A stretch of 64,000 nt of DNA from Calocera cornea HHB12733 (Eukaryota; Basidiomycota; Dacrymycetes; Dacrymycetales; Dacrymycetaceae): the NCBI GenBank assembly GCA_001632435.1, contig KV423964.1, forward strand, positions 1 to 64,000. Direction: 5' to 3'. Below, piece after piece: positions 13,344 to 63,106 of this stretch. Made by a program: the position numbers and the translations under genes. Within the stretch, counting starts at the first letter, position 1; each line of letters starts with the position of its first letter. The notes under the pieces were generated by a model. That model saw only the letters and a list, made by a program, of their open reading frames with translations. It ran no database searches and was not told the DNA's origin.

Positions 13344-13867
13344 ATGGAGCGCGGGGGAATGGCTGCGCCAAGACGCAGGCCGAGGGAGGAAGACGAGATG
13401 TCCGAGTGTGAGTCCGCCTGTCCCCGGTGCATCCATCGGACGTTTGGCCAGGCTGACAAGCGGGTTGCATGTACGCAGTGACAGACGCCTTCCAGGCGCT
13501 CGTCGCGACGCTCCGGCACCAGTACTACGTCTGCAAGCCGCTCGTGCTGCACCAGCTGCAGTCCCTCACCTGGTCCCTCCGCCTCTCCCTCCTCTCCATG
13601 CAGGAAGACCTGCTCCGCCCGTTCCGCACGTACACGGACCATGTCCTCCTGCTCGACTCTCCCGACGCGCAGGGCTGGCAGACCTGCATACACGTCGCGG
13701 AGGAGGAGGTCATGATCTTCCGCATCCAACACAAGGCGGGCCGGAAGATGAGCCACGGTGTGAAGCTGGCTGCGCGCCCGCGCGGGGACGCGGCCAGCCC
13801 GCGCCCGTACCAGCAGCAGCAGGGGCAAGGGAATCACCGCGTGTTGACCCTTTCTGGCCGAGGCTAG
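13344..13867 (+). CDS. Small hypothetical protein
   Basis: Two exons, 13344-13407 and 13479-13867, join as GAGT|TGACA and give about 150 residues; starting at the in-frame ATG 13398 would give 132. The intron has a GTGAGT donor. The middle is helical and amphipathic (AFQALVATLRHQYYV, LQSLTWSLRLSLLSMQEDLL) and the end is Arg/Gln-rich and probably disordered. There is no signal peptide or clear membrane segment. I do not recognise the family. The gene ends about 40 bp before a 25-bp palindrome at the edge of the repeat-rich island, so it could be the left part of a gene interrupted there; nothing in the sequence proves this. Confidence 0.5.
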
Positions 13868-13908
13868 GATAGGGTCGAGGGGATAAGCTGCAACAAGCCG
13901 CAATTAAC

Positions 13909-13933
13909 CCGAGGACAGGTCACCTGTCCTCGG
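13909..13933. repeat. 25-bp perfect palindrome, motif ACCTGTCCTCGG
   Basis: Arms CCGAGGACAGGT and ACCTGTCCTCGG flank a single C. The 13868-14274 spacer otherwise holds only the 3' flanks of two convergent genes. A related palindrome is at 18321-18343 and related single motifs are at 25028-25150. Confidence 0.9.
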
Positions 13934-14180
13934 CAACGTTCAGGCTACCTGTCATTGCATAGAATAGACTTACTTAAGACTAGATTAGGTAGTCTAACCT
14001 TGTCTGAGTTCAGATCTGCTGCCGCGCCTGGTATTTGCCTCGGCAGGCACTCTGCAATAGCGCCCGTAAGACAGGCTTTCGAAGATAGAATGGGCTTGGC
14101 TCAGGGCAGCATAAGATAGGCGCTGGCTCTTCCGTTGGAACGGCGCCTCCGCGAGCTGTAGACTTAGGAGGTGCAAAGAT

Positions 14181-14216
14181 GATGTGATGTGTTGGTGTCG
14201 GACCGAAGTCCGGCAC
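14181..14216. repeat. TGATGTGTTGG palindrome, 3' flank copy
   Basis: Left arm TGATGTGTTGGTGTCGGAC, tetraloop CGAA and a shortened right arm GTCCGGCACC. It lies just past the stop of the 14275-16006 gene. Confidence 0.85.
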
Positions 14217-14274
14217 CTCATGAATTCGCTACACGCTACTAGGAGTAACAATCGGTCATGCTCGCCGCTCTCTA

Positions 14275-16006
14275 TCAGCAGAGGTTGTTGTCGGGCCCGC
14301 CAGCGTCTCCGCCTCCATTCACGAGCCCGTCCATCCCCTGCAGGGCTTGCCCGAGCCCGAACACCTCGCTGAGAACTTTCTCGGGCTCTTCGACGCCGAA
14401 CTTCTTGAGGATGGCTTGAAGCGCTGCGTGAGTTGTCAGCATGGTGCTGTGCGCGTTTGATGTGTGTTGGTGTCGGACGGATCGTCCAACACCAACACAT
14501 CACAATGAAACCGCACTTACCCACGGTCACCCCAACCTCCAGCACCTTTCCGCCGTACGTCCAGACGAATTCTTTGCCCGCTGCCTTGACTTTGGAGAGC
14601 TTCTTCCCACGCTTCTTCTTGCCGGCTTCCTTCGCGATCTTGCGCTCTTCCAACTCGCGCTGGTGACGCTCCAACTCGAGCTGCGCGTCAGCAATCTTCC
14701 TCCTTTCCAGCTCCTTCTTCCTCTCCTCGAGCGGCAGCTTCTCGAACTCCTTCTGACGCGCAGTGATGGTCTTGTCCCATCCCGTGCGCCTTCCAACGTG
14801 GTAGCTCTCCACCAGCTCGCTCTCCCTCGCACGGCCCACTGCCCCCTCGATTTCGTCCTCCTGCTCCTCCAGAGCGACGAGCGCCGCGACGATTCCATCG
14901 AACTCGCCCACGTTGGCCACGCGGACCTTCTCCACGATCATCTCCGCGTCACTGGCCTTGCGCACATCGATTTCGGCGCGGGTAGAGCGGTTGAAGGCCT
15001 CCGGGTTGGCCATCCCGGACAGCACAAGCTTCTCGATCCTCTCCTTGCGGTGCCTGGAGGGCGGCTGCCAGGTAGCGGCCACGATGGCGTCAGCAGCGGA
15101 GACATCGGGGTCGGTAGCGGCGTCAGCGGCGGGGTCGGCAGCGGCGTCAGCGGCGGGGTCGGCAGCGGCGTCGACAGCGGGGACATCGTCATCGTCGGCG
15201 TCTTCATCGGCGCTGGCGGCCTCGACGTCGTCAGCAGTAGCGGGAGCGACAGCGACAGGAGCGAGGACGAGGTGGGGGACGTGATGAGAAATCTGCGTCA
15301 GGGGTTAGCAAAGCTGTAGATAGCAAAACGATGAGGAGAGCCTCATCGTCGACACCAACACATCACAACCTGTGTGATGTGTTGGGTGTTGGACGAAGAG
15401 CCGACACCAACACATCACAAGTGATGTGTTAGGTGTTGGACGACTCGTCCGGCACCAACAAATCACAAGACGCACCTTATCGCCAGCGAGCAGCTCCTTG
15501 AGGCGTTCCTGCGTCCAGACGGCATCGGCGCCGTACTTCGCCTGGTAGGCTTTGACCAGCTGGGAGGCGAACGTGTCGGCCACCTCCGTCGACATCTCCG
15601 CCGACGCCTTCTCCTTCCCCCCCTTCTTCGCCGCCTTCTTCGCCCCTTTCTCCCCGCTCGCCGCTCCAGCATCATCGCGTACGTCGAGGACGATCTTCTC
15701 GGCTTTCTTCTTGGGCGCCTTCTTCTTCGCCTTCACCTTGGCCGGCCCCTTACCCTTCTTGTCCAGCTCAGGCGCCGGCTCGGGAGCGCTCGACTCGATG
15801 GCGCTCGTCTCGTCGTTACTGCTCGGGGCGAGCGAGGTCTTCTCCGCCGTGAAGAAGTCGACGAACGGCGCGACGGCCTGCTGAGCGTTGCCGATGAACG
15901 AGATCGTCGTCTCCCAGTCGGGAGCGGGCGTCAGGCCGCCGTCGGCATTGCTGCTGGTCGTCGAGGGAGAGAGGGAGGTAGTGTCGACAGTGTCGACCAT
16001 AGACAT
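14275..16006 (-). CDS. Hypothetical charged, coiled-coil protein with repeat-filled introns
   Basis: Exons 15476-16006, 14521-15292 and 14275-14423 (complement) join in phase to about 483 residues. The first third has Lys-rich KAKKKAPKKKAEK-type stretches. A central Asp/Ala run repeats DPAADAAA. The second exon then carries a long charged helix (FEKLPLEERKKELERRK, LELERHQRELEERK), which should form a coiled coil. No catalytic motif or known domain was recognised. Both introns contain the TGATGTGTTGG palindromes: three units plus another hairpin in the first (15293-15475), one unit in the second (14424-14520). It starts about 670 bp from the divergent gene at 16674. It could be a passenger gene of a mobile island or a host gene invaded by the repeats. 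Confidence 0.65.
14457..14505. repeat. TGATGTGTTGG palindrome, intron copy
   Basis: A nearly complete unit: TGATGTGTGTTGGTGTCGGACG, GAT, then CGTCCAACACCAACACATCA. It sits wholly within intron 14424-14520. Confidence 0.95.
15328..15469. repeat. Tandem array of TGATGTGTTGG palindromes in an intron
   Basis: Intron 15293-15475 holds an ACGATGAGG/CCTCATCGT hairpin fused to a half unit (to 15368), then two full units at 15371-15419 and 15420-15468. Almost the whole intron can fold into hairpins. Confidence 0.95.
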
Positions 16007-16673
16007 TCTGTAAAGAAGATGATAGTTTGAGAGAGAATGAAAGAGGATGGCAGCGTGCGACTTTACGGATTCAGCCCTCGACTTGCCATACCTGCGTATT
16101 TGCCTCCGCGCTGTGCTACATCGCTTTCCGGGCTTCTTCCCCTATTCCCGAGCCTCGTGTTAGCCTCATGGGTACAATGAGTTACTCCAGCGCTGGAAAG
16201 CGCTGGAAAACAACTAAAATTATCAGTCGAAAGCGCATATAGGAGGCTTTCGGTGATGTGTTGGGTGTCGGACGGTCCGCAACCCAAAAGTATTCTCGCA
16301 GACGCAATTCTGGATGTATTTCGAAAAAAAAAGGGGGGAATGGTACTACTACTAATTAATATTCATTTCTCCTACTAAACTTGCTCATGCGATGTCCTCC
16401 GAAAGTGAAATTACATTGTCGAGTTGGGACGAATGCGTCCTGATAATCACGTGACGTGCACCGCGGGAGAATGCTGTGCTGGCGCGGGCGCAAAGCGGCG
16501 CTCCAGCCTCCTAAGTCCTCGAGCTCGTCGTCCACAGCACCCTGCTCACCGTCTTACAAACCACCACCTACTCGAAACTACTACTGATACTGATACTGCC
16601 TGTAAGTTGTTAGCTTTAGTATTGATACTGTTACTAACTGCCTTGTCTGTAGGCCTTGTCTAAACACTATCCA
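16007..16673. promoter_or_regulatory. Divergent intergenic region
   Basis: It lies between the starts of two divergent genes. A palindrome copy is at 16252-16288 and an A9/G6 run at about 16323. A GTAAGT...TGTAG pair at about 16610-16652 looks like a 5'-leader intron of the plus-strand gene. No specific activator site was identified. Confidence 0.45.
16252..16288. repeat. TGATGTGTTGG palindrome, intergenic copy
   Basis: GGTGATGTGTTGGGTGTCGG followed by a degenerate right arm GTCCGCAACCCAA. Confidence 0.8.
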
Positions 16674-18047
16674 ATGGAGAGGAACGTCATGGAGAATCCG
16701 GGTCCGCCGTGGAGCACCGCGCACGATAACGCGCAAGTAGGACACGGCAAAGGTGCGCACTTCATATCACTGTGCATATCGATCCTCACTGACCTATTTC
16801 TAGATCCTGACGTCTATCTACACAACAGACCGGGCCCTCGGGGAGAAACTGGCGCACTTTCCGGGGGCGAGCTCAGCATCGACGATCGCACAAACGTCGA
16901 GGAAGGGACTGCAAGCCTCCTCGATAGCGACTCTGTCGGCGCCATCGTCCGACACCAACACATCACACCTGGGAGTGTCCGCCTGCGGGACCTCTCGCCC
17001 GCTATCCGCCTCCGGGATAGCAACTCTGCTCGCCCTCGGAGCAGTGCGGCCGTCGTCACTCTGGCCACCTCCGATTCTGCCTGTTCTGCGGAGTCGATCC
17101 ATTTGGGCCCTCGGAGAGAGTTTGGCGCACTCTCCGGGGGCGACATCAATTCTGACGATCGCACCCACATCGAGGACGAGACTGCAAGCTTCCCCAATGG
17201 CGAATCCGTCTGCGTCTTCGTCCGACACCAACACATCACACCAGAGAGCGCCTGCCTTCGGGGCCTCTCGCCCGCTATCCGCCTCTGGGATAGCAACACT
17301 GCTCGCCCTCGGAGCAGTGCGGCCATTGTCAACCTGGCCACCCCCAAGTCCGCCGTTTCTGCGGACTCTGACGTCCTCACCGCTGTCACAACCACTTCCC
17401 TCCCTAGGATCGCCGCCCCTCGTTCCCCTGCTCCTTCCTACCGCACCAACGTTGACATCGCCGACCGGATCTCTGACACCGAAGTCGAAGTTGCAGCAGG
17501 GGAGCATGCAGGGGATGCAGACGTTGAAGAGGACGAGGGAGACGCTGAAGAGGAAGACGAGGAAGAGGAAGAGGGAGAGGAGGAAGAAGCTGAGGAAGAG
17601 GAGGAGGCAGACGAGGAGCAGGAGGAAGAGGACGAGGAAGAGTCAGAGGATGAAGAGGATGAAGCGGAAGAGGAAGAGCAACATGTGCAAGTGGATGAGA
17701 GCTTGCCCGTCTACCGCAAGCACGATGGTCTCCCCACGTACGCGACGCTGCTCCCTTCCCAGGCGGCACCATCGACCTCAACCCATCCATCGCCTCCTCC
17801 CTCGCCCCCCCCGAAGAACACTACCATGCCGTTTATTCCGACGTTTCACATTCCAACTAGGGCTGAGGTGAGGGCTGTGTGGGACGAAGCTGACCGCCGG
17901 GCTGTCGAGACGGTGTCGCCGGGACTGCAGACTCCGTCCAACCACTCGAGCGCGTCCGCCAAGCGCACCCCGCGCTTGTTCTCCCTGTTCAAGCACAGCA
18001 AGAACAATCGCCCTCGCGATCTCGTTATCCCGCCTCTGCACTTGTGA
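16674..18047 (+). CDS. Hypothetical acidic protein with internal duplication
   Basis: Exons 16674-16752 and 16804-18047 give about 440 residues; the 51-nt intron has a CACTGAC branch site. The N-terminal half is two diverged copies of about 90 residues (DNA 16834-17103 and 17104-17380), each containing RHQHIT, which is a palindrome arm read as codons. Then come roughly 60 residues that are almost all Glu and Asp, a Ser/Pro-rich stretch, and a basic C-terminus ending near FSLFKHSKNNRPRDL. No known domain was recognised. The composition would suit a nuclear, chromatin-associated or histone-chaperone-like protein, but that is only inference. It may be a passenger gene of the surrounding mobile island. 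Confidence 0.55.
   Translation: MERNVMENPGPPWSTAHDNAQVGHGKGAHFISLCISILTDLFLDPDVYLHNRPGPRGETGALSGGELSIDDRTNVEEGTASLLDSDSVGAIVRHQHITPGSVRLRDLSPAIRLRDSNSARPRSSAAVVTLATSDSACSAESIHLGPRREFGALSGGDINSDDRTHIEDETASFPNGESVCVFVRHQHITPESACLRGLSPAIRLWDSNTARPRSSAAIVNLATPKSAVSADSDVLTAVTTTSLPRIAAPRSPAPSYRTNVDIADRISDTEVEVAAGEHAGDADVEEDEGDAEEEDEEEEEGEEEEAEEEEEADEEQEEEDEEESEDEEDEAEEEEQHVQVDESLPVYRKHDGLPTYATLLPSQAAPSTSTHPSPPPSPPPKNTTMPFIPTFHIPTRAEVRAVWDEADRRAVETVSPGLQTPSNHSSASAKRTPRLFSLFKHSKNNRPRDLVIPPLHL
16945..16968. repeat. Exonic half-palindrome (RHQHIT), copy 1
   Basis: CGTCCGACACCAACACATCA read in frame within exon 2 of the acidic-protein gene. Confidence 0.9.
17219..17240. repeat. Exonic half-palindrome (RHQHIT), copy 2
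   Basis: The same arm as at 16945, carried along in the internal duplication. Confidence 0.9.
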
Positions 18048-18720
18048 AGCTCCTGATCGACAGGCGCCCAAGTCGCCATCTCACCTATGTCGCTTTGTGC
18101 CTCTTACCTGTCCTCTCTCCCTGCTCTCCACCTTCCTTAATCACGTACCACAACCACTCGCACCACTCGCACCAGTCCCTCCAGCCTGCTCTGCATGTCT
18201 TGAAGACATGCAGATTGTAGAGCTTTATCTTTGATAGGGAAAGCTTCTGTATTAGGCCTGGAGGGCCATTCCCAATAACACTCGTTGAGAAAAAAAAAAC
18301 CAATCGTGTGCATAAGCAACACCTGTCCTAGCCTAGGACAGGTAAACCCCTTCTGGAAACCCATCGGCATCCCAGGACGCGTGGATAACAGCTCGTGCGT
18401 CTTTTCCTCGTTCTCTCTCGACGACCATCCCACTGGCCACACGCCTTGCAAACTGTTTATTGTCGCCGCTGATAAGATCAGTGACGACATCGAGGACCCT
18501 GACTTTCCCTGACCAGCCTCATCATCGTTCTCGTCAACATCGACCACTCCTTGTAACATCACCCATCGCCGGCCTCCATCCAACTCTCCGGACGATATCT
18601 ACGGGACATATCCAGAGGTCTGGCAGGTCTAGGGGAAGCTAGAAGGGTTAGCGGACGAGAAAGGACTAGGAGAGTAGTGATTACTGGTGCGCCGCTCGTC
18701 ATCTTCTGCCAACTCGCAGC
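18048..18720. other. Intergenic region upstream of the transposase gene
   Basis: It contains the palindrome at 18321-18343 and an A9 run at about 18291. Short frames overlap on both strands without recognisable content. It presumably includes the transposase promoter. Confidence 0.45.
18321..18343. repeat. 23-bp perfect palindrome, motif ACCTGTCCTAG
   Basis: Arms ACCTGTCCTAG and CTAGGACAGGT around one C. The arm motif is that of the 13909 palindrome with the arms in the opposite order. Confidence 0.9.
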
Positions 18721-21700
18721 ATGCACGCTAACTCTGTGATACAGATGGCACGTACCACGGCAGGCAAGAATAAGAATATCATCCTTCATAAAGGAACTCT
18801 GAAGTGTCTATGCCAACAATGCAAGACAGCTGCCAGACCCAACGGCAGGATGCTCACGAAGGAGCAGATGCGCGCTCATGTCAGATATCTGCCGTCGCAA
18901 CCTTCACGTCGACCTCAGCAACAAGTAGATCCAGCATCGCAGCAGGCTGAGATTGGACTGGTCGACCCATCCCCATCACTGGAAGAGGATGGAGACTGGT
19001 ACATGGCGATGGACGAAGCTCCCACGCTGTATATCTCCCCACTGTCACCGCCGCCGGCAGTCAGCGGACTTCCTTCCTCGTCCCCTTCTACTCCTCCTCT
19101 TGTGGCCGCCTCTCCACCTCCAGCGTCATCGTCCGACAGCAACACATCACTCTCGGATGATATGCTGCCTGGTATTGTCGGTGACTCTGGTGTTGGAGGA
19201 CCGACCGACACCAACACATCACAGAGTTCCAACACCAACACATCAACCCCCACCCCACCCTCTCCAACTGCCCCGCAGCCTCTCTCCCCACAACGGCCCT
19301 CTCCGTCCCGAATACCTTCCCCAGAGCCCATGCAAGTGGATGAAGACGTTTTGGTTCCATTCGAAGACGATGAAGAGCCCGACCAGGGCATATCTGTCGA
19401 TGACTTAGGCATTCCGGTGTCAGCATGCCCGCTCCCCTACGATTTCGATCAGCCAACACAGGAACCCTGGCTATGCTATCTCGGCCTACATGCCAACGCC
19501 GCAGTTCGAGCCATTGTACTTCTGCTGATGCTCATGCATGCACGCTATCAGCTTCCTCATCAGGCGTGCGCATTGCTGGCGACAATGCTGTACACCCTCC
19601 TGGAGTACTGCTTCGTGCTCTCTCCCTCTGCCAGCTCTCCGCCGGCGACTGCTCCACCACGAACCCTAAGGACGATGTATAAGCGGATGGGTTTCTGGGA
19701 TCGCTTCGAGGTCAAGACTCTCTGTCCCAAGTGCTGGGAGCCGGAAGAGCTGGAGGAGGAAGATCTGGACGCTGACCTCTTGGACGACTTTGGACCAGCA
19801 GATGCTCACAGGCGCGTCGAGGACTGGCAGCGCATATGCCGCCGATGCAAGGAGCCTCTCTACGCTGAAGCTGCCAAGTCTGGTTATATACGGCCCTGCA
19901 AACAAGCGCCTTACGACCTGTTCTCCCTCCAGCTTACAGAATGTCTTGCGCAGCCTGGTATCGAAGATGCTTGCGAATCATACCTGGACGACACCGACAT
20001 CGATGGCATCTATACACGGATTCAACAGGGCAGCGTTTGGAGAAATATGAGAGCTCAGGACGGGACACGCTTCTTCCCACGCTCTCGGGCAGAATCTCTG
20101 CAGCAGTGTGAGCTGCGGCTTGGGGTTCTGCTCTCCTTGGACTGGTTCAACCCGAACCAGTCCACGACCGCAGAATCACACTCATCTGGACCTTTATCTC
20201 TCTGTATCGCGAATCTTCCTCCCGAGCTACGGTGCGTACTTTCATTTCTCCTCCTCGCCCCTTCCTCGTGCTCACTTAGTGGCAGATTCCGCGTGTATAA
20301 TCTCTCACTCGTCGGTATCCTCCCCGGACCTCGCGAACCCACCTGCGAAGAGCTTCAACGTTTTCTTCGACCTTGTGTGGATGACCTCTTGCGACTCTGG
20401 CAAGACGGAATAATCATCAAGACGCCGAAATATCCACAAGGTGAGCAGCAGCATCCAACACCAACACATCACATCAATGTGATGTGATGTGATGTGTGAT
20501 CGTGTCGGGCGATTCGACCGACACCAACACATCACATGGACGAAGCTAACATGTATTCATGTAGGCCGCAAGGTTCGCGTAGCTCTGCTGGCTGCCATCT
20601 GCGATCATCCCGCGCTCTGCAAGCTCTGCGGATTTGGTGATCAGCGACATAACGCTCGTCCCTGCACGCAATGTGAAATCCCCCGCAGTGACATGCTGAG
20701 CCAAGGTTGGAAGACAGACGGCGTTCCTCTTCGGGATGGCGAGCTGCACAAACGCCGAGCCGCCCGCATGTACAACCTCCAGCACTCAGGCACTTCGAAG
20801 CGCAAGGTCGACGAGTATGTCCGACGGTACGGATGCAGGTGGTCCGAGCTCTGCCGACTGCCATACTTCGATCCTGTAACCATGGGCGTGCTGGATCCGA
20901 TGCATATGCTCCTTCAAGGGCTGACCAAGAGCTTGTGGTTTCACACCTGGGTACAGGGCGGCAAGGAGGAAATCAAGCTACTACGAGAAGGCACTGAAGC
21001 AGGTACGAGACGCGAGCTGGATGAAATCCACGAAGTCCTGCGCACTGTAAGTGCTCCAACCTCTCCCAGGATTCCAGACTGATGCGTCCATGCAGTTCGA
21101 GATGCCATCATGGTATGCCAGACTGCCAACAAAAGTCGGCTCGCCAGCAGGAGGTAGTCTCACCTCCGACGAGTGGAGAGCATTGGCTGTTGTGTACGGC
21201 CCGGCTGTGGTGAGCGAAAGTGTTGATGTTGGGCCGCATCACCCGACACCAACACATCACAACTGTGATGTGATATGGTGTCGGACGGTGCGCCCGACAC
21301 CAACACATCACATATCCCGCGGCTTGTGCTGATCTCCCTCAGATACCCCCCGTTGTGATCCAGGCCCACGAAAAGATGCTGGACGACGCCAGCCGGAAGG
21401 CGCAGAAGCAAAAGTCGCACATACCACCAATCCAGCCCGATGGAGATATCCAGCATGATGAAGCGCAGGCCGAAGTATCCTCTGCGCCGCGCCCAAGAGT
21501 GCATCCCGATACAGCTGCAAACTACCTCAAGTTTGCCACTGTGTTGAAGATCTACACGCGGCGGGAGATATCTGAGCGAGATATCGAGCGAGCGTCGCGA
21601 CTGTACCTCGACTTCTTCGAGGAGTACGTCAAGGTGCGTTCCTGCGTCCGACACCAACACATCACAGATGATGTGATGTGGTGTCGGACGAATCGTCCGA

Positions 21701-22846
21701 CAGTAACACATCACCTCACACCTCTTCCAGATATACGGAGTCTCCAATGTCACCCCGACGTTTCATTGGGTGACCCACATGCCCGCGCAGATCCGCCGAT
21801 ATGGTCCTGTGCATGGCTTCTGGACGTTTCTGTTCGAGCGCCTGAACAAAGTTCTCAAGGCAATCAATACTAGCGGCCACAAAGGAGGAGTGGTCGAGGT
21901 CACATTTGCACGCGAGTTCAAGCGCGAGATCAGCTTGACCCGCATGGTGAGTTTGTCTTCCCTGAACATCGCGTTCCTAACATGTCTCCAGTGCTCTGTG
22001 CTTGCCAACCAAGACAACGACCGACTGGCTCGATTCATCGCGAGCAATCTCAAGAAACACGCCCGCGATATCGCCCGCATTGGGACACTTTCTGCTCTCG
22101 CTGCGGAAGCGCAAGATCAAGCTGCCGCCGAACGAGAAGATCGTCAACCGGGACAGTGCGTTGCAGCGGGCACGGGCAAGCTGCGGTTCCTCGAAGATGG
22201 CCTTCAAAAGGCGTTGATGGAGTGGTATGCACGGCATCACCCTGATCTCAAGCTTCGCTTTGGAGCCGATGCAACTGCGCCCCTGGGAAGCACCTTCTTG
22301 GCAAACAGAGCGACATTCTTCTCAGAGCTCCGGGTGGAAGGGAAGCGTATTACAGTTGCGCATGAAGACAAGCGCAGCAAGTCGGACTCACTCGTCCTTC
22401 ATCGAGTCTCAACAGGCTTGCAATGGGTGGGCGAGCTCAGAGGGGTGTTCTTACATCGCCAATCTGGCATTGAACCCGCTCAAACCTTTGCAGAAGTTGC
22501 GTGGTTGGTACCACTTCAAGATACGCCCAAGCACGCCGACTTGTACCGAGATTTGTAAGTAGCTCGCATCCCGTCCAACACCAACACATCACTCACCTTT
22601 GATGTAGCCCTGAGCTGGAAGTGAACTTCTGGGAACATCGGCGATATCTGGCCGCCGCCGACTGGGAACCCGACAGCGTGATCCTCGCTAAGGACATCGC
22701 GGGCACCGCAGCTCGCTGCGAAATGCAGGTGGGACAGCAGAAGATCTGGATTACGACAGGGATGAGCAAAGTAAGTATATTTACGAAGAAATTTCATTGA
22801 GCGGCTTCTAATCTAGTCTTCCTGCAGAGTGGCAGGTCATTATAGC
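18721..22846 (+). CDS. Plavaka/Tnp2-like (CACTA-type) DDE transposase
   Basis: Exons 18721-20231, 20286-20440, 20565-21046, 21096-21209, 21343-21633, 21731-21946, 21992-22554 and 22608-22770 join in phase, with a short last exon of uncertain acceptor. The product is about 1,170 residues. A Cys-containing N-terminus (LKCLCQQCK) is followed by a Ser/Pro linker, a zinc-ribbon-like pair LCPKCWE ... ICRRCKE, and CKLCGFGDQ ... CTQCEIP. Then comes VLDPMHMLLQGLTKSLWF, the hallmark of this basidiomycete transposase family, and conserved blocks such as GEPAGG-like SPAGGSLT, FATVLKIY, HWVTHMPAQIRRYGPV and FERLNKVLKAINT. It should cut and paste DNA in the nucleus. Four of its eight introns contain the island's palindromes. 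No frameshift was seen, so it may be intact. The symbol Plavaka names a superfamily, not this gene. Confidence 0.88.
19130..19150. repeat. Exonic half-palindrome in transposase N-terminus
   Basis: CGTCCGACAGCAACACATCA, read in a frame giving SDSNTS within a Ser-rich linker. Confidence 0.85.
19188..19246. repeat. Exonic palindrome plus half unit in transposase N-terminus
   Basis: TGGTGTTGGAGGACCGAC with CCGACACCAACACATCACA, then a second CCAACACCAACACATCA. They are read as DTNTSQSSNTNTS, a different frame from the RHQHIT copies at 16.9-17.2 kb. Confidence 0.85.
20454..20536. repeat. Palindrome cluster in transposase intron 20441-20564
   Basis: One inverted half unit, a run of GATGT repeats, and a full unit with arms around TCGGGCGATTCGACCGA. 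The host intron is 124 nt against 45-54 nt for repeat-free introns of the same gene. Confidence 0.95.
21221..21313. repeat. Palindrome cluster in transposase intron 21210-21342
   Basis: Two units, the second with arms ATGGTGTCGGACG and CGCCCGACACCAACACATCA, in a 133-nt intron. Confidence 0.95.
21644..21715. repeat. Palindrome cluster in transposase intron 21634-21730
   Basis: A half unit CGTCCGACACCAACACATCA followed by a full unit closing in GGTGTCGGACGAATCGTCCG. Confidence 0.95.
22572..22597. repeat. Half-palindrome in transposase intron 22555-22607
   Basis: CCGTCCAACACCAACACATC followed by ACTCACC. It fills about half of a 53-nt intron and ends in the complement of a GGTGAGT donor. Confidence 0.95.
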
Positions 22847-22985
22847 TAACTATGTGTGAGTTGAAGTTTTTTTGGGGCGATTTCGATGTTTCTCATGGAA
22901 CGTTTCCAAGTACTTTGTACGGGAATATCTAGAACTGAATGGGTAAGTAATTTTCCTTCCAGTAAGAGCATTTTGCTGACTTGTT

Positions 22986-23006
22986 CGTCCGACACCATCA
23001 CATCAT
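22986..23006. repeat. Half-palindrome at the 3' end of the partner gene
   Basis: CGTCCGACACCATCACATCA, running into the stop region of the minus-strand gene at 23003. Confidence 0.8.
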
Positions 23007-24702
23007 AAAGATGGTCTTATGATACGAACGATCGTCTCGGGCACTCCTTCAGGAAGCCCCGGCTTGTGTTCCCAATCCGGCACCTTCGGCAATTCTTCTC
23101 TGACCCACTGATCGTCCAGCATGAAGTCGAATGGCTCGTTGGAGGGCACAATGGAGGAGGTACGGCCCAAGTCGATGCGCTTGCCGGGTTTGGAACCGGG
23201 CTTGCCGTTGCAGGCGACTTTCTTCATGTATTTCGCGTGGATAGACTGATACCAGGTCCATACCTGGGAGTACCGGTAAGTGGTGTATCTCTGTGAGATC
23301 GAGCGAGCTGACACACCTCCATATGCATCCATTCAGGCCGCTTGATCTCCAGCACCGAGAACAAAGCGTCCTCCTCATCGCGCTCGTCGACGGTCAACTT
23401 CCCCGTGGCGTACAAGTTCTGTCTCCACCGCGAAGTCTTGTTGCCGTCCTCCTCCTCATCGCCAGACCACTCCTCGCCAACCCATTGGTCGTCCACAAGT
23501 TGGAGCGGAATGTGATCTGCATCAAGATCGTGTTCGATGCAGAAATCTTTGATCGCGTTGCGCATCTGGCCGGTGCGCTAGAAGAAGAGTAAGCCTCGTA
23601 TTGGTCCAACACCAACACATCACTCACCGTTCTACGCTTCTCTGCGCGCCGGCTAGCACTCGCATTCTTCCTCTTGGCCGCTCCTCCGTCCTTCACCTCC
23701 AAACGCTGTTTGTTCCAGACCTGCTTCAAGTGCGGCCAGGAGATACGAGCCAGCTGGACCAACACGGCCGAGGTGAGCCACTTGTCGCGATATGCTTCGT
23801 GGACATTCTCGGGATGGTTCTATTCGAGGTGAGTGATGTGTTGGTGTCGGGCGGATGGCTCACCCTTGAATCTTCCAAGACCATGATGGCTGCCCTCATC
23901 TGAAGTAACCGGTTCGTTTCCCCGTTGATGTCTTGACGGAAGTCCGGCCAGAGGAGATTGGGATCATCGGGCTTGCGGCCGTCTCCGTGACAAGGCATTT
24001 TGTCGCCGACCTTGTACTGCATCGCGGCGTACATTTGGTTGCGTACCTGCGCCTGTCCCGTCCTTGTAAGCACTAGTGCCACGATTTCTGCTAGCCGCGT
24101 GGAGCTGACTCACCTGCAGATATCGCTTGATATCGAGCTCGTTCTCGTCCAACCCCCCTCTGTGCAGTTTGGCAGGGTTCACGCCATTGGTCGAAGGGAA
24201 AGCAGGCAACGACTCGGCCCCACCGTCGACCTTCGACCTCTTCTTCCGTCTCTTTGCCGGAGGGTGAACGACAGCCGCCTCAACTGCAATCAGGCGACGA
24301 TGCAGGTCGCCCATGTCGGTCTGCGAGAGAGGAACCTCGTTGTTGAGCAGGAGCGGCGTGTCTTGAGAGGAGAGTGGGGAGGCCACGCTCGCAGACGAAG
24401 GCGGGGTTGACAGAAACCCACTAGACTGAGTGGAGGCAGGCTGCGGAGTCCTGAAGCGGGAGGTGAGTGATGTGGTGTTGTCGGACGAATCGTCCGACAA
24501 CACATCACATGTGTGATGTGTTGGTGTCGGCGACCATGACTTACACTGTTGCAGATTCAGGGAGGACCGCCAACTCGTTACCCCCCCGCGGATCCGCCAT
24601 CCATCTGAGAAGACGCGCCTTCTCGATAGACCGCTGCGGCTCTGGCGTAGCTTCGAGCGCCTGAAGAAAGTCAGATGCAGGGGAAAAGGATTGGGAGAAC
24701 AT
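23003..24702 (-). CDS. Transposase-convergent hypothetical protein
   Basis: Six exons (complement): 24545-24702, 24114-24450, 23864-24046, 23628-23819, 23317-23577 and 23003-23263. They join without a phase error to about 463 residues. The N-terminus is Ser/Thr/Pro-rich with a basic patch (KRRKKRSK) that could be a nuclear signal. The conserved-looking middle reads LDIKRYLQVRNQMYAAMQYK, LWPDFRQDINGETN and HPENVHEAYRDKWLTSAVL, followed by a helical basic stretch, then two similar DDQWVxEE segments and a basic C-terminus. I recall proteins of this style as multi-copy hypotheticals in agaricomycetes, but assign no function. Its tail-to-tail position next to the transposase and shared intron repeats suggest it belongs to the same element. 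Three of its five introns carry the palindrome. Confidence 0.78.
23604..23627. repeat. Half-palindrome forming the 5' half of an intron
   Basis: On the minus strand the intron 23578-23627 begins GTGAGTGATGTGTTGGTGTT, so the repeat arm starts at, and includes, the 5' splice site. Confidence 0.95.
23829..23862. repeat. Half-palindrome in a 44-nt intron
   Basis: On the plus strand GGTGAGTGATGTGTTGGTGT then CGGGCGGATGGCTCACC. It makes up most of intron 23820-23863, and both ends read as GTGAG donors in opposite directions. Confidence 0.95.
24463..24531. repeat. Palindrome cluster in intron 24451-24544
   Basis: A complete unit, GGTGAGTGATGTGGTGTTGT with CGGACGAATCGTCCG at its centre and ACAACACATCACA as right arm. 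It is followed by TGTGATGTGTTGGTGTCGG. Confidence 0.95.
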
Positions 24703-24846
24703 TGCGACAAGGCGAGAAGGGGGTCAAGCTGGGTTCCTTCCCCCGGTGAGAGAAGGGTCAGGTTTTTATGGCAAGGAGGAGCGAAACGGGTTGGGGGAGG
24801 AGAAAATGCGCTTGCTGGGGCCGTTTTAGAACGCCTGGCGTGATAT

Positions 24847-24992
24847 CCACCGTAGCATAGGTGTTCTGGCCAAGATCTATGATTAATTTACTTATCCCGC
24901 GAAGATGACCAGCGATGGGCCGCGCGAAGCCTAGAAAATTACGTCTGGCCCGTGCTACGGTGGGAATAGGTCAAATTGTCTAGAACACCTAT
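24847..24992. repeat. Nested inverted repeats upstream of the partner gene
   Basis: CCACCGTAGCAT (24847-24858) pairs with GTGCTACGGTGG (24952-24963), 11 of 12. ATAGGTGTTCT (24857-24867) pairs exactly with AGAACACCTAT (24982-24992). The spacer is AT-richer than its surroundings. It could be a subterminal repeat of the transposon or a small foldback element. Confidence 0.75.
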
Positions 24993-25027
24993 ACTAGACA
25001 CCCCTATGCTAGCTCTGACTACAATGT

Positions 25028-25150
25028 ACCCTAGGACAGGATATAAAAACCTGTTGGAACTACCCTGGGAGAGACGTATGCCAGAACACCTCCCTCGCCT
25101 GCCATATGCCTAGGTCAGGTGATTCAGACCATCTGCAAGACCCTAGGACA
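25028..25150. repeat. Cluster of CCTAGGACAGG-type motifs
   Basis: ACCCTAGGACAGG at 25028, GCCTAGGTCAGGT at 25108 and ACCCTAGGACAT at 25140. They match the arms of the palindromes at 13909 and 18321 and mark the right edge of the repeat-rich region. Confidence 0.7.
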
Positions 25151-25167
25151 TCCGGCCCTGACACGCG

Positions 25168-25467
25168 GTGAATGAGCCGATCGTGCACCTCGCGCGGCTC
25201 CCGCGCCCGCCGCACGTTGCCCAGGCGCTGATCGTCACCGAAGTCCGACGGGTGCTGGCCGAGGACGTGCTGGACGAGACGGAATGGGTGCTGCGGGATG
25301 CTGTCAAGGGGGCGAAGCGGCGCTGCTTGAGAGAAGGGGCCGGGATGGAGTGGTGCGATGTGTGGCTAGCCGGCGTCGTGAAGAAACGGCCGGGCGGCAT
25401 TGAAAGGGGCAAGGAGGAGACGGCGAGCGGGAAGATCGTCGGCCTGGCAGCGAGGTTGGTGCCTTAG
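25168..25467 (+). CDS. Possible exon or gene remnant
   Basis: This frame stays open upstream of the listed start and ends at TAG 25465-25467. Its composition is protein-like: amphipathic helices such as HVAQALIVTEVRRVLAEDVL and EWVLRDAVKGAKRR. It has no recognisable family, signal peptide or membrane segment. It begins within 30 bp of the last CCTAGGACA motif, so it may be the truncated right-hand remainder of a gene broken by the island, or chance coding potential in GC-rich DNA. Confidence 0.3.
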   Translation: MNEPIVHLARLPRPPHVAQALIVTEVRRVLAEDVLDETEWVLRDAVKGAKRRCLREGAGMEWCDVWLAGVVKKRPGGIERGKEETASGKIVGLAARLVP

Positions 25468-56121: not shown

Positions 56122-56868
56122 CTAGTGTAGGGCTGCGCGGAGCGCTTGGCTCTGGTCAGTTGTTCGGATTCCAGAGTGCCGGAGGGGGCCATCAGGGGGG
56201 GATCCGCCGTCCCTTCGACCGTGCGGCCAGCCTGCTGAAGAGGTAGCGCCGGATCGGAAGATCGCTGGTGAGCTAGTCAAGAGACCTCCGACGACAGGGA
56301 GGGAGTCGGTCAGGCCGGTAACAGGCGCCGGGGTGCCGGTGACTGGTGCTAGAGCATAGTCGGTGGGCCTCTCGACCGTGCCAGCAAGGCCGGAGAGGAG
56401 ATTGCTATGAGTGGTGGACTGTCTGGACGGGATGGACTTGATGATGGTCGTCCAATACTCTCCGGATGGCAGCCTTATCGTATCAGGCTCGGACGAGGTT
56501 GTGGATCTCCGGGGACCTTGTCGAGCCGACCGCAAGCCACAGGGAGGGAGTTGGCCAAGTCCATAAAGGGGTGCCGGGGCAGAGTCTGCGGCTCCCTTTA
56601 CTGCGGAGAGGAGACGGGAAGGCCCCACTGACTGGGAACAGTGCCGGTGAAATCGTCCAGGAGGCCCCCCAACGACGGGGAGGGTGTCGATCGACCGATA
56701 ACTGCGCAAGGGCCAAGTTGGAAGTATGGTCAGCCGTGCCAGCAGCCCACTGAGCAGCTCACGCCTAATGGGCTGCTCACCGATGAGTTCATCCAGCAGG
56801 CCTCCGACGGCGGAGAGGGAAAGACAGCACCGACAACAGGCGCCAGACCGAAACTCGCCATCAAGCAT
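56122..56868 (-). pseudogene. Decayed copy of the 53-residue repeat protein
   Basis: The minus strand encodes degenerate units of the protein at 61442: VGGLLDELIGEQPIRRELLS, LLSGLAGTVE and LAPVTGTPAPVTGLTDSLPV. Between them are stretches that have lost similarity. About three units can be made out. The frame happens to be open for 248 codons, but the signal peptide is missing and dibasic sites remain in only one unit. It is in inverted orientation and about 4.6 kb from the intact gene, so it looks like an old duplicate in decay. Confidence 0.75.
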
Positions 56869-61441: not shown

Positions 61442-63106
61442 ATGCAGCTCGCGCTCCTGCTCGCGCTCCTCCCGCTCCTCGCGCGCGCCCTCCCAATCGC
61501 AGAGCAGCGCGACATCCTCTCCTCCCTCCTCGGCTCCGTAACCGGCACACTCGACTCCACCCTCTCCACCGCCGACGGCCTGCTCGACTCGGCCAGCACC
61601 GCCGCCGCCCCACTGGAGGACGTGCTCCCGCTCTCGGACGTCCAGGACCTCACCTCTCTCGCCGGCCTCCCCCTCCGCCGCGACATCAACAGCGAGCTCA
61701 TCCCGCGCGAGCTGCTGGACGACCTCCTGCAGAACGCCGTCCTCGCCAGCTCGCCCCTGCACGACCTCCTCCCCATCAGCACCTTCGAGAGCCTCCCCGT
61801 GCTCGCCGAGATCAGCGCGCTCGTCAGGCGGGACCTGCTCGCAGGCCTGCTTGGCACGGTCGAGGGCACAGCCGGCTCCGCACTGGCACCTGTCACCGGT
61901 GCCCTCGCCCCCGTTACCGGCCTGACGGACTCTCTCCCCGTCGTCGGGGGCCTGCTCGACGAACTCACAGGCGACCTGCCTATCAGAAGGGATCTCCTCT
62001 CCGGCCTCCTCGGCACAGTCGAGGGTACCACCGACTCCGCTCTGGCACCGGTTACAGGCGCCCTTGCCCCCGTCACCGACCTGACCGAGTCGCTCCCCGT
62101 GGTCGGTGGCCTGCTGGACGAACTCACAGGCGACTTGCCTATCAGGAGGGACCTCCTCTCCGGCCTTCTTGGCACCGTTGAGGGCACAGCCGGCTCTGCC
62201 CTTGCACCCGTTACCGGCGCCCTCGCCCCGGTCACCGACCTGACCGACTCTCTCCCCGTCGTCGGGGGCCTGCTCGACGAACTGACAGGCGACCTGCCTA
62301 TCAGGAGGGACCTCCTTTCCGGCCTGCTCGGGACAGTCGAAGGTACCGCTGGCTCCGCTTTGGCACCCGTCACCGGTGCACTCGCCCCGGTCACCGACCT
62401 AACCGACTCCCTCCCCGTTGTTGGTGGCCTGCTCGACGAGCTCACCGGCGACTTGCCTATCAGGAGGGACATCCTCTCCGGCCTCCTTGGCACAGTCGAG
62501 GGTACCACCGACTCCGCTCTGGCACCCGTTACAGGCGCCCTCGCCCCGGTCACCGAGTTGACGGACTCTCTCCCCGTCGTGGGACCACTACTGGACGAGC
62601 TCACAGGCGACCTGCCTATCAGGAGGGACCTCCTTTCCGGCCTTCTTGGCACAGTCGAGGGCACCGCCGGCTCCGCTCTGGCACCTGTCACCGGCGCCCT
62701 CGCCCCCGTTACCGGCCTGACCGAGTCGCTCCCCGTTGTCGGTGGCCTGTTGGACGAACTCACCGGTGACCTGCCTATCAGGAGGGATCTCCTTTCCGGC
62801 CTTCTTGGCACAGTCGAGGGCACCGCCGGCTCCGCTCTGGCACCGGTTACAGGTGCCCTCGCGCCCGTCACCGACCTGACCGACTCCCTCCCCGTAGTCG
62901 GACCGCTACTCGACGAGCTCACAGGCGACCTGCCTATCAGGAGGGATCTCCTCTCCGGCCTGCTCGGCACAGTCGAAGGTACCGCTGGCTCCGCTCTGGC
63001 ACCCGTCACCGGCGCCCTTGCCCCCGTTACCGACGTGACCGACTCCCTCCCCGTAGTCGGACCGCTACTCGACGAAATCACGGGCGACCTGCCGATCAGG
63101 AACTAA
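61442..63106 (+). CDS. Secreted Kex2-type repeat protein
   Basis: A single exon of 554 residues. The N-terminus MQLALLLALLPLLARALP is a signal peptide. After about 110 unique residues come eight repeats of exactly 53 residues (61826-63097). Each opens with Arg-Arg-Asp (PIRRDLLSGLLGTVEG), continues LAPVTGALAPVT and DSLPVVGGLLDELTGDL, and the last ends at PIRN. Dibasic sites at a fixed interval in a secreted protein are the mark of Kex2-processed repeat precursors, such as the repellent precursor of smut fungi and fungal RiPP precursors. Cleavage would free seven or eight near-identical amphipathic peptides of about 51-53 residues to the cell surface or medium. No Cys is present in the repeats. 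The peptide function, surface-active or signalling, is inference. A decayed copy lies at 56122. Confidence 0.8.
   Translation: MQLALLLALLPLLARALPIAEQRDILSSLLGSVTGTLDSTLSTADGLLDSASTAAAPLEDVLPLSDVQDLTSLAGLPLRRDINSELIPRELLDDLLQNAVLASSPLHDLLPISTFESLPVLAEISALVRRDLLAGLLGTVEGTAGSALAPVTGALAPVTGLTDSLPVVGGLLDELTGDLPIRRDLLSGLLGTVEGTTDSALAPVTGALAPVTDLTESLPVVGGLLDELTGDLPIRRDLLSGLLGTVEGTAGSALAPVTGALAPVTDLTDSLPVVGGLLDELTGDLPIRRDLLSGLLGTVEGTAGSALAPVTGALAPVTDLTDSLPVVGGLLDELTGDLPIRRDILSGLLGTVEGTTDSALAPVTGALAPVTELTDSLPVVGPLLDELTGDLPIRRDLLSGLLGTVEGTAGSALAPVTGALAPVTGLTESLPVVGGLLDELTGDLPIRRDLLSGLLGTVEGTAGSALAPVTGALAPVTDLTDSLPVVGPLLDELTGDLPIRRDLLSGLLGTVEGTAGSALAPVTGALAPVTDVTDSLPVVGPLLDEITGDLPIRN
61826..63097 (+). 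repeat. Eight 159-bp tandem repeats
   Basis: Units start at 61826, 61985, 62144, 62303, 62462, 62621, 62780 and 62939, always 159 bp apart. Differences are mostly at third codon positions, with alternating variants TAGSA/TTDSA and VVGGLL/VVGPLL. Confidence 0.97.

Follow-up and report, generated by a model that had tools for sequence, protein, structure and literature searches.

Dispersed, family-specific motifs at shared positions in CACTA-type transposons of Calocera cornea: candidate recognition sites of an element-encoded protein

The window analysed here, the first 64,000 nucleotides of contig KV423964.1 (C51 below) of the dacrymycete Calocera cornea HHB12733, contains at positions 13835..25170 one CACTA/EnSpm-type element of 11,336 bp, whose boundaries were set where homology among its copies stops. 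Its termini, CACCGCGTGT...ACACGCGGTG, give CACCGCGTGT at both ends when read inwards (CACCG type), and the CAC...GTG ends with a 3-bp target duplication (AAT/AAT) are those of the CACTA/EnSpm superfamily, as is the Transposase_21 (tnp2) domain found in the spliced transposase (63.6 bits; cut-off 28.6). Throughout the element recurs a short sequence, TGATGTGTTGGTGTCGGAC, hereafter called the arm, which is the subject of this work. The genes and terminal features are:

13832..13834, target duplication AAT, left (terminal sequences)
14275..16006, minus strand, gene 1, 3 exons, 483 amino acids, lysine-rich
16674..18047, plus strand, gene 3, an acidic protein with a 273-bp internal tandem duplication, one arm per unit
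18745..22845, plus strand, transposase gene, 9 exons, 1162 amino acids, Transposase_21
23003..24702, minus strand, convergent partner gene, 6 exons, 463 amino acids (deposited model 465), candidate reader of the sites
25171..25173, right-hand copy of the AAT target duplication (terminal sequences)

Each of the eight transposase introns begins with GT and ends with AG. The deposited gene 1 protein is of equal length and identical to ours (483/483 residues, 100%), the partner agrees with its deposited counterpart at 463/465 residues, and the deposited models of both genes skip the same arm-bearing introns, which constitutes independent annotation rather than RNA evidence. The reading frame of the transposase is sure. 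In gene 3, a frame of 464 amino acids has no internal stops in the C51 copy and three others, while a competing frame is interrupted by stops in the latter three; farther on, the codon pattern also favours the 464-amino-acid frame. A two-frame reading of the exonic arms was considered and is not counted here, the argument being weak; the arm-bearing duplicated part of gene 3 is without codon pattern. No Pfam match was obtained for the two largest open frames of gene 1. Homologues of the proteins were found only in Calocera and Dacryopinax (four for the partner, five for gene 1 and six for the transposase, the queries' own included), scoring for gene 1 and the transposase being restricted to the candidates with the most shared words.

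Allowing up to three mismatches, the arm matched 23 times in the window, always within 14185-24532, against 0.01 matches expected by chance from shuffled sequence. When indels were allowed, 30 arms with up to four edits lay inside the element and two in the remaining 52.7 kb of the window; at five edits noise dominated (34 inside, 39 outside), and this level was therefore discarded. The confinement of the arms to 14.18-24.53 kb proposed in the first-pass annotation is thus borne out. The sites are as follows, slot numbers denoting the positions shared with related families that are described below:

14185..14203, plus strand, arm past the gene 1 stop (downstream), slot S1, in an imperfect palindrome at 14181-14225
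14460..14502, palindrome in gene 1 intron 2, extra site
15347..15465, minus strand, arm array in gene 1 intron 1, slot S2, ~47-bp unit with variable copy number among element copies
16254..16273, plus strand, arm carrying a 1-base insertion, in the interval from gene 1 to gene 3, slot S3
16947..16965, minus strand, arm in gene 3 exon, slot S4
17220..17238, minus strand, arm in gene 3 exon, slot S4
19131..19245, minus strand, three arms in the transposase exon 1 linker, slot S5
20453..20534, minus strand, arms in transposase intron 2 (20441-20564), slot S6
21241..21310, minus strand, arms in transposase intron 4 (21210-21342), extra site
21646..21713, minus strand, arms in transposase intron 5 (21634-21730), slot S7
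22573..22591, minus strand, single arm in transposase intron 7 (22555-22607), extra site
22987..23005, minus strand, arm between the convergent 3' ends, slot S8
23604..23622, minus strand, single arm in partner intron 4, opposite to the usual orientation
23834..23852, plus strand, single arm in partner intron 3, slot S9
24468..24532, plus strand, palindrome and arm in partner intron 1, slot S10

The outermost arms lie 350 bp in from the left end and 638 bp in from the right end of the element, and they do not show the subterminal clustering of TNPA-type motifs, no systematic search for other subterminal repeats having been made. The left subterminal region does hold a palindrome unlike the dispersed arms (CCGAGGACAGGTCACCTGTCCTCGG, 13909-13933), a candidate transposase site.

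Across the genome assembly (32.1 Mb, 302 contigs), pieces of the same element were found on contigs C19, C26, C30, C51, C138, C180 and C208, with a mutual identity mostly of ~74-78% over long stretches (~68% for the C26 remnant). The arm gave 93 matches genome-wide at up to three mismatches (nine for a reversed control pattern), and every exact or one-mismatch arm fell on these seven contigs. Only 11 of the 93 lie elsewhere, on other contigs or far off on C51, about the same number as for the control; two matches on C26 (229285 and 229342) are ~6 kb away from the recognised remnant there. A uniform scatter, which the first-pass annotation had named as a refuting outcome, is thus not what is seen, good matches being found only on contigs with pieces of the element. 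Two of these pieces, on C30 near 152388 and C180 near 57465 (loci L015 and L020), resemble the halves of a single copy broken in transposase exon 1, with an insert that is bounded by TGT...ACA and has GCGC duplicated; ATT flanks this split copy on both outer sides, and the C138 flank is ATT as well.

Among the 23 arms, 16 lie in introns, five in exons and two between genes (18/23 non-coding), although introns make up only 1251 of 11335 bp (11%) of the element (binomial p 5.5e-11, treating arms as independent). Nine of the 16 introns carry arms, and the counts given in the first-pass annotation for the gene at 14275-16006 (2/2), the transposase (4/8) and the partner (3/5) were all reproduced. 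Its statement that repeat-bearing introns are long applies to part of them only: the single-arm introns measure 44, 50 and 53 nt and the arm-free ones 45-67 nt. Since single-arm introns fall within or just below the arm-free range, the arm does not add length as an insertion would. Compared between C51 and the copies on C19, C180, C30, C138 and C208, intron arms are 91-96% identical, against 66-75% for other intron sequence and 78-80% for exons, the arms having been picked by resemblance to the consensus in C51 alone. Even in the degraded C26 remnant, intron arms retain 72% identity, against 59% for the rest of the introns and 57% for exons; its two exon arms reach only 50%, one of them falling in a gap. 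Aligned introns show arm positions common to element copies that are ~23% diverged. Copy number does vary in gene 1 intron 1, where C138 has one more and C26 one fewer of the ~47-bp palindrome units.

The palindromes had been described as differing by compensating arm changes, which would suggest a conserved RNA hairpin. This was not found: over 31 instances of eight palindromes, with approximate arm register, a palindrome's own arms pair no better than swapped ones (within site, p 0.25; between sites, p 0.96). The related suggestion of structured intron parts fares in a mixed way. All five palindromic introns tested fold much more strongly than shuffled sequences (z -3.4 to -8.2), whereas two of the three single-arm introns do not fold better than shuffles. 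The lack of any advantage of own arms, together with the two single-arm introns that fold no better than shuffles, favours each arm as a unit over a conserved hairpin.

A genome search for Transposase_21 listed 22 matches. On a short domain alignment, seven families among them, A-F and H, group together with support 1.00, and the remaining transposases fall outside this clade. Each of these related families has its own dispersed motif, about 20-27 bp long. The families are:

A, the window element
B, C13 and C19
C, C88
D, C7, C26 and C249
E, C74
F, C183
H, C91, C30 and C232

The motifs are largely restricted to the contigs of their own family. Of the genome matches to the family B motif, 30/37 are on C13, C19 and C82 (control 5); the corresponding values are 11/12 on C88 for C (control 0), 16/16 on C183 and C111 for F (control 0), and 20 of 35 on C91, C30 and C232 for H (control 5). 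The family D motif gave 77 matches (control 44), with the non-chance ones clustered on C7, C26, C249, C149 and C239. For family E, 12/13 matches at up to two mismatches are on C74, three-mismatch matches being mostly chance (control 21 at that level). The motifs were also scanned in 3-kb loci, with three shuffles each and 10 control pieces; the families that stand out in this short-locus scan are A, B, C and E, along with a single D copy. For B, C and D, longer stretches were covered as well. An initial survey of repeated 10-mers had missed E, F, G and H, all four of which later scans recovered. In the other transposase clade, the highest counts at eight loci (L025-L031 and L034) were 3 or 4; shuffles reached at most 3, and control pieces gave 2 to 4. 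All seven consensus motifs are GC-richer in their 5' half (ends chosen by hand). Similarities at p 0.03 or less were seen for A-B, A-Spm, B-D and C-F among 36 pairs (300 shuffles each), uncorrected for multiple tests, and no claim is built on them. Neighbouring motifs are spaced by exactly 102 bp in families B, C, D, E and F, in family F through five successive sites (C183:54915-55345).

The motifs differ between families and occupy largely common positions. A motif is present in transposase intron 5 in 7/7 families (E and H being placed by position inside a longer alignment), and measured from the transposase start there are about ten slots, each with a fixed strand (positions approximate):

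-3.9 kb, minus strand
-2.9 kb, plus strand
-2.2 kb, minus strand
-1.5 kb, plus strand
+0.45 kb, plus strand, exon linker
+1.75 kb, plus strand, intron 1 or 2
+2.8 kb, plus strand, intron 5
+4.15 kb, plus strand
+5.0 kb, minus strand
+5.7 kb, minus strand

In pairwise maps of merged sites (same strand, within 250 bp, 5000 trials), D and E agree at 10/10 sites (p 2e-4, the limit of 5000 trials), A and D at 8/14 (p 4e-4), A and E at 8/14 (p 2e-4), and B with D and with E at 7/11 (p 6e-4 each). Families C and F each fill 7/10 slots defined from D and E (400 bp tolerance), the left end of C being beyond its contig; on C111, three F-like sites occur in the order minus, plus, minus. Shared slots are clear for A, D and E and partial for B, C, F and H.

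Within families, sites also changed their letters together. In family D, T precedes CG in 9/10 sites of the C7 copy and 0/11 of the C26 copy (p 3.4e-5), this position having been left free in the search pattern. In family B, CAACAAAC is present in 3/3 sites of C82 and 0/27 of C13 and C19 taken together (p 2.5e-4), the C19 copy accounting for 13 listed sites; in family H, 6/6 sites of C30 read TTTACA and 8/8 of C91 read TTC (p 3.3e-4). In the B and H searches, sites with the commoner letters would have been easier, not harder, to detect in the variant copy. Such concerted change is expected of sites that follow one reader, and gene conversion could also give rise to it.

The convergent partner gene accompanies these motifs. 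Partner homologues were found in all seven families (at least one copy each; in B, on C19), and also at C66:102377-103153, on a contig with no listed Transposase_21 match; none was found at the group I transposase loci in the list. It is this co-occurrence with the motif families that makes the partner our candidate reader.

Elsewhere in the window, a tandem array with a step of ~159 bp (61824-63101; copies 82-86% alike) has an inverted relative near 56206-56402. Two further stretches are duplicated at ~74% identity, one in direct and one in inverted orientation (42610-44269/46385-48037 and 27022-28476/38427-39878), and are possibly duplicated genes.

VANDAL elements belong to the MULE (Mutator-like element) superfamily. 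According to PMC5735166 and PMC10398659, VANC proteins of Arabidopsis bind family-specific short motifs in VANDAL introns and non-coding parts and remove silencing marks. The arms resemble VANC motifs in being concentrated in one family, mainly in non-coding sequence and introns, and at chance level elsewhere, and the tandem gain and loss of units, the concerted change and the different motif in related families also have counterparts in VANDAL as described there. They differ in that the transposase here is Transposase_21 and not Mutator-like, that the motifs are 20-27 bp long as opposed to the nine bases reported for VANDAL21, and that they occur mostly as single dispersed sites in shared slots rather than the dense arrays reported for VANDAL; moreover, the anti-silencing protein and its effect are demonstrated in VANDAL, whereas we infer them here. 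The plant CACTA protein TNPA (TNP1; maize En/Spm, soybean Tgmt) is reported to bind family-specific subterminal repeats that are part GC-rich, part AT-rich, motif and binding protein diverging between families (PMC2613891), and to reactivate a methylated promoter (PMC1636069). With these systems our elements share the transposase superfamily and a short, family-specific, palindrome-capable repeated motif of GC-rich and AT-rich parts; unlike them, they carry internal sites, whose ten or so slots include introns as well as coding linkers, and a partner without detectable similarity to a named family. The present sites thus join a CACTA element, a TNPA-like motif build and a VANC-like spread and concerted change.

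Two fungal comparisons are closer in taxonomy. The TET/JBP-carrying fungal EnSpm elements, as described in PMC12730594, likewise have CAC...GTG ends, 3-bp duplications and an extra gene thought to counter silencing. In contrast to these, neither the partner nor the two largest gene 1 frames show any sign of TET/JBP by Pfam, and the means here would be site recognition, not an oxygenase. Cryptococcus CNIRT6, also a basidiomycete CACTA element, is reported with CACTG ends and 3-bp duplications, and a dispersed motif is not mentioned in the available part of that account (PMC12810828); among our own elements, family B copies have ACT/ACT and ATT/ATT target duplications and CACCG or CACTG ends. 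Titles and abstracts in PubMed Central on fungal CACTA subterminal motifs and Calocera transposons showed nothing on such sites, subscription journals being mostly outside this scope.

The reading we favour, with belief and doubt about evenly balanced, is that the arms are recognition sites of a sequence-specific protein that the element encodes, the partner being the likeliest candidate, and that this protein acts in a TNPA- or VANC-like manner. The partner protein would bind about ten slots over the element's DNA, in introns, exon linkers and intergenic spaces, and such binding would mark the whole element, and its own family only, as a target. The likeliest gain would be that transcription of the element continues and silencing is averted; autoregulation comes second. 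On this reading, the letters changed together across the slots in the course of family divergence. The host genome contains DNA methyltransferase and Piwi-domain matches. Of the three options raised in the first-pass annotation, the one involving protein binding is therefore the best supported, with the amendment that the transposase is not the likeliest reader. A more tentative extension, which we are inclined to doubt, is that the slots form a whole-element address code: about ten slots, fixed in position and strand, would have all their letters rewritten from family to family, each set being read by the family's own partner, so that a family would protect or regulate only itself.

Several observations weigh against recognition by the partner and the common slot plan. 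The slot maps of A and B agree at only 5/14 sites, no better than random (p 0.18). In family F, S1-S3 were not found on C183 and two sites lie outside slots; the two family H copies fill five slots each, with four and one sites outside; and the transposase start from which slots are measured was estimated for C, F, H and two D copies. Two of the three D copies, F and H were not clearly above shuffles or the 10 controls in the short-locus scan, and these families therefore rest on the genome-wide searches. Around a long open frame, family G of the other clade (C91, C62 and C1; L032 and L033) also has a recurring motif, GGCTCCCAATTCGCTC, on both strands, yet no partner was detected. The partner protein itself has no Pfam match and a best match in PDB at chance level (E 0.62), and its AlphaFold2 model was uninformative (mean predicted local distance difference test score 38) and not used for fold searches. 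Finally, CpG observed/expected is 0.96 in the element and 1.03 and 0.94 in its flanks; without depletion, there is no sign of heavy past methylation.

An alternative that we regard as unlikely, while giving it some weight, is that the motif acts in RNA, a factor made by the element recognizing its own pre-mRNAs or mRNAs and, for example, aiding splicing and so avoiding RNA interference (RNAi) triggered by stalled spliceosomes. The enrichment of arms in introns and the strong folding of palindromic introns suit it, as do the Piwi-domain matches in the host and a Cryptococcus precedent for transposon-intron splicing and RNAi from stalled spliceosomes (reported in PMC5851062). Sites of families B-F and H, their positions read by eye, are in transposase sense within the transposase and in partner sense within the partner, which keeps this explanation in play, although a B site beyond the partner (326544) fits neither sense and orientation may simply be inherited along with the slots. 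Its strict form is opposed by slot S2, which runs opposite to gene 1 sense in A and lies on the same strand in B, D and E, and by the antisense arm of A partner intron 4, conserved in three copies; the single-arm introns that do not fold beyond shuffles and the lack of covariation between own arms also speak against it. We think it improbable that the sites serve transposition itself, bound by the transposase or the partner to build or regulate an excision complex. Plant TNPA binds CACTA subterminal repeats, which are described as cis-determinants of excision (PMC2613891), and the motif layout here is similar to those repeats, but in A no site lies within 350 bp of the left end or 638 bp of the right end, and the sites are spread over the interior and conserved even within introns.

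Local tandem duplication and palindrome formation without function, kept alike by gene conversion, would account for the copy-number variation of the ~47-bp unit in gene 1 intron 1 and for the steps between tandem sites, which are 102 bp in families B to F and 39 bp in C. We hold this to be very unlikely, given that sites lying far apart, in separate genes, have kept their resemblance as the flanking sequence diverged and that the intron 5 motif is present in all seven families. The palindromic form and the preference for introns had also suggested a self-spreading hairpin, or a repeat resembling a miniature inverted-repeat transposable element (MITE), inserting into introns; within this family we can scarcely credit the idea and have rejected it, as independent genomic copies do not exceed chance, positions are shared by diverged, aligned copies, and single-arm introns are not lengthened.

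Should site recognition by the partner, in the form of the address code, be true, it would mean that VANC-like self-recognition has arisen twice independently, the case here lying outside plants and in a different transposon superfamily. If the partner counters silencing, anti-silencing through sequence-specific self-recognition would be a feature of fungi as well as plants, and of CACTA as well as Mutator-like elements. The joint change of specificity in a DNA-binding protein and its many dispersed sites is an open problem, and seven related elements in one genome, with slots largely kept and letters changed, would make it directly testable with seven proteins and seven motifs.

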